Shown: piece by piece, positions 1 through 6,282 of the stretch | Position numbering within the stretch: position 1 is the stretch's first letter | How the letters are laid out: each line of letters opens with the position of its first letter | Position numbers and translations under genes: made by a program | Origin: Flavobacteriales bacterium | GTDB lineage: Bacteria; Bacteroidota; Bacteroidia; Flavobacteriales_D; Sanyastnellaceae | NCBI GenBank assembly: GCA_029238785.1 | Contig: JAQWFN010000067.1 | Span: 1 to 44,853, forward strand | Direction of reading: 5' to 3' | Length of the DNA stretch: 44,853 bases | Notes under the pieces: generated by a model | Database searches by the model: none | The model's input: the letters and a program-made list of their open reading frames with translations, nothing else | What the model was told of the DNA's origin: nothing

Positions 1-189
1 AATGGGAACAACGACATGCTATTGACTGCAGCCAGTGAGCGTGAAATCAGCTGAAGGCACGTTCAGAGGATCCACCACTTGAATGTTCACTGGTCCACGA
101 CCAGCTTCATAAGTCACCGCATCAACATAAACGTTCTCCAAAATTTCCCGCTCACTGGCTGCAGTCAATAGCATGTCGTTGTTCCCATT
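1..189. repeat. Inverted repeat (fold-back) at contig start
   Basis: Bases 1-41 are the exact reverse complement of 149-189. After one mismatch (42 against 148), bases 43-46 again pair with 144-147. The arms are separated by about 97 bases. The inner arm (144-189) is ordinary coding sequence inside the secreted-protein gene. The outer arm repeats it in the opposite direction and supplies that gene's apparent stop codon. This is the geometry of a fold-back chimera from amplification or assembly at a contig end. A genuine genomic hairpin is possible but less likely, because it would have to end the gene exactly here. Confidence 0.9.
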
Positions 190-2577: not shown

Positions 2578-5500
2578 TTAAAAATCGAGCTTCACACCCA
2601 AACGAATTGTTCTTGGTAAACCAAGGTTGAATGGGTTGTCAACATACATACTGTAGTAGTTACGGAATGATGCAGGATTTACCTGGTTGTTAACCAACTG
2701 CTGGTATTGAGCAGCTGCGAGGTATCCGTCATCATCAGAAACACCAGTGAATCGGTATACACTATTGATGTTTTGTGTGTTCAAGAGGTTAGAAATCCAG
2801 AAGTAAACATTCAAGTTAGCTGTTTTTGCTTTCTCTCCTTCTCCTCCAAACTGTAGCGTGAAGTTACGGTCGATATTTACATCAAGGTTAAATTGCCAAG
2901 GCAAACGAGAACCGTTGATTGAACCTTCAGTGTTTGGCGAAATTTCACCAGTAATTGGGTAAGCAATACGGCTAGCGGTGTAAGGTGTTCCAGAACCAAG
3001 GTTGGCAATGAAGTTAACCCCTGTATTAGCAAAGATTTGCTTGTCGAACCAAACCGGACCATTGTAATCTGTTCCGCTTCCATAACGGTAATCCAAGTTC
3101 ATAACGATACGGTGACGTTGATCGAAATCCAATGGGTTGATGTTTCTCAAGTTTGGAAGACCAGCATTGATCAATGCCAAAGCTGTTTGAGTAGTAGAAC
3201 CAGTACCATCAGCAAACTGAAGGTTGTAAGAAGCGTTGATACGAACGTTTCCTGTTCTTCTTAAGTCATAAGTCAAAGACAAACCTTTAACGGTACCAAA
3301 GTCGAGGTTACCGAAAGCACGGTACTGACGTGGGTAAGCACCAGGGAAGGCACGCACCTGAATCATGTCTCTCATCTCTTTGTAGTAACCAGAGATTTTG
3401 ATAGAAGAGGTCTTGCTCAATACTTGTTGGAAACCAAGCTCGTAGTCAATGGTTTTTTCTGGGCGAAGGTCTGGGTTATTGATCAACACGTTTCTTGCTT
3501 CGATAAACAAGTAATCAACCGGATTGAATCGGTTACTACCTGTAGGACGTTGAGTCAAGATATCGTAGTGAGCAAAGAACAAGGCCTCATCAGAAATCGG
3601 GAAAGAGAATGCAATACGTGGCATTACGTTCACCTGCGGATCGTAATCACGGAAAGCAGAGCTGGTCAATGGCGCATCTGGTCCGTTTACCAACCAAGGC
3701 GCTGGATCTCCAGAGTTAGAAGCAATCAACTGTGGATCTGAAATTTCAGTTCCCGCTGCGTTGAACCAAGTGTCTCCATCACGGTAACCTGTAATAGCGG
3801 TAGGGTTAGCAACATCATTCACATATACGACATAGTCGCTTCCGATATTAGAAGGAATGTTTGGTGAATTATCCAAATCATTTACCAATCCACCAGAAAT
3901 GTCACCAACAGTGTAAGCTTCTCCAATCACATAAGGATCTCTCAATACCGGTTGGTTAGCATCAAAACGGTCAACACGAACACCAACGTTAAAGATGATG
4001 TCGTCAAAGGCAAACTTATCCATTACATACCCGGAGATATAAATTGGTTCGTAAGCACCAATCGGACGAGTTCTGTTGCCATTTTCATCTGTTTCGTTGA
4101 AGAAATCTTCGATGGTTGGACGAGAACGATTCGTTTTTTCACCGAAAGCATTGAAACCGCTGTAGCTCACAAGGTTGTTACCTTGATTCAATAGCTCATC
4201 TGCGCTAAACATGTCTAGCGTGAAGGTTTCTGGATCTAGTGCATCAACGTTAATGTTGTCGTTTCCATTTGGATCTAGACCAAGAGCAATACGTAAGTTA
4301 CGGTCAAATGCGAACTGACCATTACCAATCAATCGATCATAAGTTACGTAGAAATCAGTTCCCTGGTTAGTAATTGTACTATCAGAGAAATCCAACTCCT
4401 GAATGTGTGCATTGGTATTCAAACGAGCCAATAACCACAATGAAGATGGGCTGAGCGTGAAGAAATTATCACGACGTTGCTCGTATTCAAAACCTACCTG
4501 AACGGCGTGGTCTCCAATATCAGCAGAACCAGCAGCAGTAATACGGAACTGACTGTTATCTACAACAGAATAATCAGCACCACCATCATCAGATGTAGGA
4601 GTTCCCGGGTAAGTCCACAAGTTATATGTTCTTGGTGGTAACTGTCCGTTCAACAATGCATTTCCGTTTTGAACATCCAAGAGCGAAGTGTAAGGTCCTT
4701 CAGGATTCACATCGTATGGTTCAGGATCAAATAGCGAGAAGTATTGGTTGTTGATGGCAGCAAGTTCTGGATTAGAAGTTCCTGGAGTAAAAGTTACTAA
4801 GGTATCTTCCCATCCATTATGCACAAAACGGAATCCACCGTTATCTGAGAACTGACGCTCGTAAGACAACTGATCGAAAACTTCAAAACGTCCAATGTGT
4901 CCGTACTTAAAGAAATCATCTCTGTGGTCTTCATCTTGTCTTTTCTGGAATGACTTTGAGTAGTCAATCATTACAGAATAGAATACGTTTTTCAATGTTG
5001 ATGCGGCATTCTCGTCTTCATCATCACTGATGAAACGCTGAGAGAACTTACCGTAAACACGCCAGTCATACGAAGTGATCAAACTGTTGTTGTCCCAGTT
5101 CATCAACATGTTTCTATACGAAGCGTTGTATTGACGGTTGAATGCTCCCGTACCACCAAAAGTCAAACTCATGGTCTCAGAAGTGTTCACATCAATTTTA
5201 GCTACCAAGTTGGCACTTCTTGAAGCAGCGTTCAAACGAGTAGGAACGGTTTCAAAATCGTTGGCCTTGAGGAAGTCGGCATTGTATAATGCACCGTTAA
5301 TGGTTCCATCAGAAGCAACGTTCTGGCGAAGTGGGTCGGCAATGATTCTATTTCTAGCTTCATCGGTAATTCGATATACCCCTCCAAACGTCGGGCGTGG
5401 ATCAACTTGACTTTGGTAGTTTCCAGAAAGGAACAGACCAAGAAGTGGACGCTCACGATTTCCGTCGGCATCTTTCTTAAACAAGAGAGGTCCAGATAGA

Positions 5501-6282
5501 GATCCTTCTAGTAGGTTGTAACCGAAACGGTCAAGACCTACTGCACCTTCTCCGCTTCGAACACCAGAAGAAATCACCTCAAATCCACCGAACCACTTGC
5601 TAGAAGAGTTACGAAGGGAAATGTTGATGACCCCACCAGTTGCATCACCGATGTTCGCAGGAATACCTCCTGTTAATACGGCAACTTCTTCGATGGCTGA
5701 TTTCGGCAATGCAGAAGAACCACGCACCTTAATACCGTCAATGTAAACCCAAGTAGAAGCGGTACGAGCTCCACGAATGGAGATTCCACCACCTGTACCT
5801 GATGTTCCCACACCGGCTACGGTTTGTGCGATGGCACCAGCAGAACGACCCGGCATCTTGTCGATGTCCTCACGTGTAACTGTTCCACCTGATGCACCAC
5901 CATCCTTATCAATCAAAGGAACGGTGTACTCAACAACTTCAACCTCTTCAAGCTGAATACCCGAAGATAATTTAGCGTTGGCGAATTGAATTTTGTTAGA
6001 AGCTACAGAGATGCCTGTAACTTTTTGTGGTTGATAACCGACAAATGAAAAGAGAACGTCATACGTTCCTGGATTAATCGGTTTAATGGTGTAGTTACCA
6101 TCGAAATCGGTGTTAGTACCGGATACCTGATTACCGTTAAGGAAAACCACCACATTTACAAATGGGAGGCCTTCACCTGATTCGGCGTCGGTTACCTTAC
6201 CTTTAAGTGTCCCAGACTGCGCTAGAGCGCCTGTACCGAAAAGGAAGGCCAGCAAAAGAACTGAATAGATCTTACGTGACAT
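2578..6282 (-). CDS. TonB-dependent receptor with carboxypeptidase-regulatory domain
   Basis: An outer-membrane TonB-dependent receptor of 1234 residues, long for the family. It has a signal peptide ending ALAQ at about residue 22, then a CarboxypepD_reg-like beta-sandwich at about 24-110 (GTLKGKVTDAESGEGLPFVNV). A plug domain at about 125-225 contains GGGISIRGARTASTWVYIDG. The remainder is a beta-barrel ending in the aromatic C-terminus GVKLDF expected for assembly by BamA. No SusD-like lipoprotein follows; the next gene is a large secreted protein instead. The substrate therefore cannot be read from context, and nothing shows it is a glycan. Transcription probably starts at the -7/-33 promoter at 6327-6359, giving a leader of about 40 bases. 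Confidence 0.93.
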   Translation of the reverse strand: MSRKIYSVLLLAFLFGTGALAQSGTLKGKVTDAESGEGLPFVNVVVFLNGNQVSGTNTDFDGNYTIKPINPGTYDVLFSFVGYQPQKVTGISVASNKIQFANAKLSSGIQLEEVEVVEYTVPLIDKDGGASGGTVTREDIDKMPGRSAGAIAQTVAGVGTSGTGGGISIRGARTASTWVYIDGIKVRGSSALPKSAIEEVAVLTGGIPANIGDATGGVINISLRNSSSKWFGGFEVISSGVRSGEGAVGLDRFGYNLLEGSLSGPLLFKKDADGNRERPLLGLFLSGNYQSQVDPRPTFGGVYRITDEARNRIIADPLRQNVASDGTINGALYNADFLKANDFETVPTRLNAASRSANLVAKIDVNTSETMSLTFGGTGAFNRQYNASYRNMLMNWDNNSLITSYDWRVYGKFSQRFISDDEDENAASTLKNVFYSVMIDYSKSFQKRQDEDHRDDFFKYGHIGRFEVFDQLSYERQFSDNGGFRFVHNGWEDTLVTFTPGTSNPELAAINNQYFSLFDPEPYDVNPEGPYTSLLDVQNGNALLNGQLPPRTYNLWTYPGTPTSDDGGADYSVVDNSQFRITAAGSADIGDHAVQVGFEYEQRRDNFFTLSPSSLWLLARLNTNAHIQELDFSDSTITNQGTDFYVTYDRLIGNGQFAFDRNLRIALGLDPNGNDNINVDALDPETFTLDMFSADELLNQGNNLVSYSGFNAFGEKTNRSRPTIEDFFNETDENGNRTRPIGAYEPIYISGYVMDKFAFDDIIFNVGVRVDRFDANQPVLRDPYVIGEAYTVGDISGGLVNDLDNSPNIPSNIGSDYVVYVNDVANPTAITGYRDGDTWFNAAGTEISDPQLIASNSGDPAPWLVNGPDAPLTSSAFRDYDPQVNVMPRIAFSFPISDEALFFAHYDILTQRPTGSNRFNPVDYLFIEARNVLINNPDLRPEKTIDYELGFQQVLSKTSSIKISGYYKEMRDMIQVRAFPGAYPRQYRAFGNLDFGTVKGLSLTYDLRRTGNVRINASYNLQFADGTGSTTQTALALINAGLPNLRNINPLDFDQRHRIVMNLDYRYGSGTDYNGPVWFDKQIFANTGVNFIANLGSGTPYTASRIAYPITGEISPNTEGSINGSRLPWQFNLDVNIDRNFTLQFGGEGEKAKTANLNVYFWISNLLNTQNINSVYRFTGVSDDDGYLAAAQYQQLVNNQVNPASFRNYYSMYVDNPFNLGLPRTIRLGVKLDF

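Follow-up and report, generated by a model that had tools for sequence, protein, structure and literature searches.

An inverted chimeric tip at the start of a Flavobacteriales contig, very probably placed where assembly ran into a collapsed pair of secreted-protein genes

Introduction

The first gene of the window, by which the whole analysed stretch of 44,853 bases is meant, runs on the minus strand towards the contig start, enters an inverted repeat and stops there. The window is contig C35 of a genome of 132 contigs and 3.11 Mb. This locus raises the question of whether the hairpin and the stop belong to the organism or to the assembly and, in the latter case, where the remainder of the gene is to be found. 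Both were found to be an assembly artefact and not biology. With a probability of about 95%, the contig ran into a collapsed repeat and its first 42 bases are a chimeric tip in inverted orientation. A first-pass annotation of the window had already proposed a chimera, and the continuation of a paralogous gene without any fold-back, described below, supports that proposal. Two points go beyond it and are invisible from the window alone, namely a collapsed repeat shared with the paralog and an inverted arm of paralog type.

The fold-back and the truncated gene

Comparison of the letters within the window confirmed the earlier report that bases 149-189 recur exactly, as their reverse complement, in bases 1-41. 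The arms extend further, to 1-47 (plus strand) and 143-189 (minus strand), with 46 of 47 positions complementary, a sole mismatch at 42/148 and a spacing of 95 bases between them. An inverted copy of nearby sequence beginning at the contig end is one feature of inverted chimeric contig ends, and it was found here.

The truncated secreted-protein gene (locus A) is an open reading frame of 842 codons at 19-2547 on the minus strand. The frame is normal through residue 835 (bases 45-43) and is followed by seven residues, TLTGCSQ, and a TAG stop at 21-19. In this reading of the frame the codon at 19-21 (minus strand) is a false stop within the chimeric tip, and the true coding part is 43-2547, or 835 residues. 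The first-pass annotation had placed the stop correctly but gave eight residues before it, a count that includes the last normal one. Bases 1-42 do not belong to the gene at this position. The first-pass warning against annotation as a complete 842-residue protein was upheld, and reading the hairpin as a regulatory element would be equally wrong. Upstream of the truncated gene, at 2578-6282 on the minus strand, lies a TonB-dependent receptor with CarboxypepD_reg and Plug domains. The same order is seen in relatives, and the receptor marks the window gene as locus A. A profile search with the 842-residue fragment gave no Pfam or NCBIfam match, TIGR04183 included.

The paralog on contig C19

A protein search of the genome located the 5' part of this gene only on C35 and on contig C19. 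The C19 paralog (locus B) has 1,376 codons, is open at the contig end and shares 72% protein identity with the window gene over window residues 3-833. It is preceded by an AddA-like helicase, in which UvrD helicase domains were detected by profile search; the name AddA, like GreA below, is a putative one read from the sequence. At 43-282 of the window (minus strand; C19:10704-10943) begins a near-identical tract common to both genes, with 98% DNA identity, one difference in 43-266 and four in 267-282. The single difference in 43-266 is at base 148, inside the matching arm of the true coding sequence, and is synonymous, the codon being CGG in the window and CGT in C19. Below window base 43, C19 runs straight on without a fold-back.

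The inverted arm, 1-47, is 100% identical to C19:10797-10843 (plus strand), including the C19 letter at the one distinguishing site. Since it agrees with C19 at the very site at which window 143-189 departs from C19, the arm is of paralog type, and to call it a copy of 143-189 would not be strictly correct. Body and arm overlap at the junction by five bases common to both sides, GAAAT at 43-47 (unstranded): the match to C19 reaches base 43 from the body side and base 47 from the arm side. Taken alone, this overlap of five bases could be due to chance.

The missing part of the gene had been expected to carry a type IX sorting domain, and the tail of the paralog is in line with this. The last 93 codons of the paralog on the contig scored 24.8 bits against TIGR04183 (Por_Secre_tail, the T9SS type A sorting domain), for which the curated cut-off is 23, while the full 1,376-residue query scored 18.9 bits, below that cut-off.

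Collapsed repeat and true continuation of the gene

The last 141 bases of C19 were identical to the first 141 bases of contig C23 (58,065 bases, or 58 kb) and to its reversed last 141 bases. Directly beyond these 141 bases the two ends of C23 differ: the last residues encoded are ...WFGIMRPADLDNF at one and ...WFGMMRPTDLDRF at the other, with a stop codon after each. One contig end overlapping two others by exactly one k-mer length (141) is what a collapsed assembly repeat looks like. MEGAHIT uses k-mers of up to 141. Because the end of C19 overlaps both ends of C23 exactly and the sequences diverge immediately after, one graph node of k = 141 serves two loci, with one stored copy for two genes. 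Only C19 and the window have the 5' part, and therefore the window gene owns whichever C23 end is not that of C19.

The start of C23 carries a gene of the PorV family (NF033709, 147.2 bits against a cut-off of 90, which places the protein in that family) and a GreA-like gene. The order of locus A in relatives is TonB receptor, secreted gene, PorV-family gene and GreA, and in locus B of relatives an AddA-like helicase precedes the secreted gene. The TonB receptor is on C35 and the AddA-like helicase on C19. On account of this synteny, with the TonB receptor on C35 and the PorV-family and GreA genes at the start of C23, the window gene should continue into the C23 start. The complete gene A would then code for a protein of about 1,390 residues with a predicted type IX sorting domain. 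By sequence comparison, the cause of the break was thus identified as a putative collapse of a near-identical half gene, and the predicted true C-terminus was located on C23 by synteny. The position of the PorV-family gene after the secreted gene in locus A (C23 start, L010:1-3000) suggests a dedicated type IX partner.

Among 27 loci examined for synteny, six have a TonB receptor and a secreted gene that reaches its C-terminus (L074, L076, L086, L088, L039 and L042), which supports the earlier claim that the window gene has lost its own. PorV and GreA then come next on the same contig in five of the six, the exception being L039. In three further loci (L078, L082 and L090) the secreted gene after the TonB receptor runs off the contig end. 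Two of the six genes that reach the C-terminus are damaged, with a frame change in gene A of L074 (genome G013) and two in-frame stops in that of L076 (G032). Gene B is open in both of these genomes, and gene A may be decaying in that related genus.

Proposed origin of the contig start

The preferred explanation starts from two paralogous genes, A on C35 and B on C19, with 3' parts that would be so alike that the assembler kept one copy, on C19. With the one 3' copy stored there, the window contig would have had no unique continuation. The unassembled middle of gene A would be near-identical to gene B, and the real gene A would reach the C23 start by way of another copy of the C19 tail. A fold-back molecule could then have become the end of the window contig. 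Such a molecule may have been formed by snap-back priming: a strand with ATTTC at its end would anneal to its own GAAAT some 100 bases back, and extension would then proceed over the opposite strand. It could have arisen in amplification, in library preparation or inside the assembler. Since the arm carries C19's letter at base 42, and not the window's, the molecule would have come from gene B, or pieces would have been joined by the assembler. The molecule probably came from gene B and would have been attached to C35 via the 105 bases (43-147) in which the genes agree.

Similar artefacts have been described. Chimeras of multiple displacement amplification (MDA) are mainly inverted joins at which a few bases are complementary; in one report 85% of 475 chimeras were inverted and 76.8% had at least 2 complementary bases (PMC1855051). 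The contig start resembles these in its inverted second segment, its nearby source and the few complementary bases at the join, and differs in having a paralog's letter in its arm. Fragmentation and end repair of libraries can also give inverted artefact reads, in which a strand and its own inverted complement stand in a single read, according to a second report (PMC10908179). A strand joined to its inverted complement is common to both cases. The artefacts described there are from human capture libraries and arise at natural inverted repeats or palindromes, whereas in the window only five bases would have done the priming. The break itself has a likeness in Porphyromonas gingivalis, where adhesin repeats shared by hagA, rgpA and kgp break short-read assemblies inside those genes (PMC5266723); there, too, identical stretches between surface-protein genes of a T9SS bacterium are responsible. 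The P. gingivalis repeats are modular adhesin repeats, while genes A and B have their whole 3' part in common, in which no Pfam domain was found. Literature searches for metagenome assemblies whose contigs end in a fold-back or a palindrome gave, as judged by titles and abstract openings, nothing on this case.

Other contig ends and related genomes

Fold-backs starting from base 1 were found at four of 82 sampled contig ends (82 of 264 in all; only 400 bases were available for 16 of the 82) against none of 4,000 interior controls, these being random window positions scored for a fold-back of at least 14 bases beginning in the first six. All four are contig starts, with arms of 107 bases in C5, 47 in C35, 29 in C49 and 17 in C16. 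G001, the only genome of the same genus listed for comparison, aligns to C5:312-998 in forward and to C5:1-284 in inverted sense, and to C49:139-778 and C49:3-148 in opposite senses. Two other contigs of this assembly, C1 and C28, are collinear with it at the respective places. The starts of C5 and C49 (L111, C5:1-1000, and L140, C49:1-1000) are likely to be further chimeric ends. C16 is collinear with G001 from base 10 on, and its 17-base fold-back gives no clear support for an assembly-wide artefact. The end of C39 is 87% identical over C16:12-425 (L112, C16:1-1000), perhaps as a result of strain variation.

The first-pass annotation had proposed looking for the same palindrome in a related genome. 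The window junction (query bases 1-110) was searched in 36 genomes, the window's own included, of which 32 gave some match at E values up to 10, and it was found in none of the 35 relatives. In G001 the two flanks of the junction match separately and without a palindrome, and there is an arm-only match to 1-48. Apart from arm-only matches, the longest ones across 42/43 were 33 bases at 82% (G009) and 31 bases at 87% (G042), and both were taken as chance. Among 25 break ends tested, 24 of them from relatives, the window's was the only one with a fold-back.

A real inverted rearrangement, truncating gene A to leave either a true 842-residue protein or a pseudogene, was considered very improbable. 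The frame is open with a proper stop at its end, and damage to gene A does occur in one related genus (L074 and L076), but a second 3' gene end with its own stop stands at C23 and has no other owner in the assembly. The paralog's letter in the arm, a fold-back with its start precisely on the first base of the contig, like three others among the sampled ends, and the failure to find the junction in the 35 relatives all argue against it as well. Slightly less probable still is that the arm is a trace of recombination between convergent gene copies, with C23 as an invertible segment, and not a chimera of laboratory or assembly. In its favour, C23 lies between inverted, identical 3' ends of genes, and the same pair is convergent in the complete genome G013, at a distance of about 52 kb. 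Against it, recombination between inverted repeats swaps flanks in register and would not produce a hairpin of 47 bases that connects two sites, about 100 bases from each other, in one copy. Furthermore, the five relatives' loci that have TonB, secreted gene and PorV together are all in the same order. A chance palindrome was ruled out by the interior controls and by a crude estimate of about 2e-20 for a perfect 41-base pair within 189 bases.

The gene pair across relatives

Members of the gene family occur in 59 of 60 genomes, a count that includes the genome of the window. The break points of the two copies were compared in 11 relatives. An exact shared run reaches up to both contig ends in five of them (127 bases in G005 and G024, 149 in G019 and G016, 55 in G025), and 91-103 bases are common near the ends in three (G001, G033 and G006). 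The collapsed repeat is not universal, as the gene pairs of the remaining three (G036, G022 and G028) have no such near-identical run at the break points. That the contigs of the paralog pair end in one shared exact run in five relatives (L157-L164, L081 and L082) indicates that the same gene pair breaks their assemblies. Because several relatives' assemblies break in this pair, short-read surveys of type IX cargo in the family will miss C-terminal halves.

An apparent recurrent homogenisation of the 3' half provides a small evolutionary lead. The trees of the two gene halves disagree. In the N half (residues 41-700) one clade (100/100) comprised the B genes of six genomes, which represent four genera, and in the C half (residues 846-1330) A and B of genus g13 grouped together (93/96), as did A and B of G004 (100/100). 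A single clade of the four available B genes was rejected when enforced on the C half (p-AU 0.018), as was a grouping of A with B of g13 when enforced on the N half (p-AU 3e-7); the tested groups were chosen after the first trees, which makes these p-AU values generous. A clade of the core A genes plus G004A was badly posed, being rejected in both the N half (p-AU 0.006) and the C half (1.8e-60), and the narrower tests were relied on.

Three features of the N half go against a simple conversion story. The A genes of those four genera do not form a supported clade (65/73), the A and B genes of G004 and G009 stay in one group (94/94), and L030, with the helicase upstream, pairs with L039, with TonB upstream (96/98). 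Either conversion went further in some lineages, or the history of duplication was more complex. Overall, the trees fit and suggest recurrent gene conversion of the 3' half, which may have acted across the family. Of the titles and abstract openings covered by narrow searches on gene conversion between paralogs, in T9SS systems or in bacteria, none treated this case, and only the P. gingivalis report bears on it.

In G013 the convergent pair is placed like C19-C23-C35, with only 79.5% DNA identity in the 3' part. A tentative and rather doubtful proposal is that a convergent pair about 50-60 kb apart, as in G013 and presumably in the window's genome, has had its 3' halves repeatedly overwritten by gene conversion across the family while the 5' halves stayed distinct. 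Such a pair might also flip the segment between its members, with an exchange of 3' ends and of downstream partners such as the PorV-family gene. Unlike these convergent pairs, the two copies of G009 (L085 and L086, on C88) have the same orientation, are separated by about 307 kb and show only piecemeal matches to each other.
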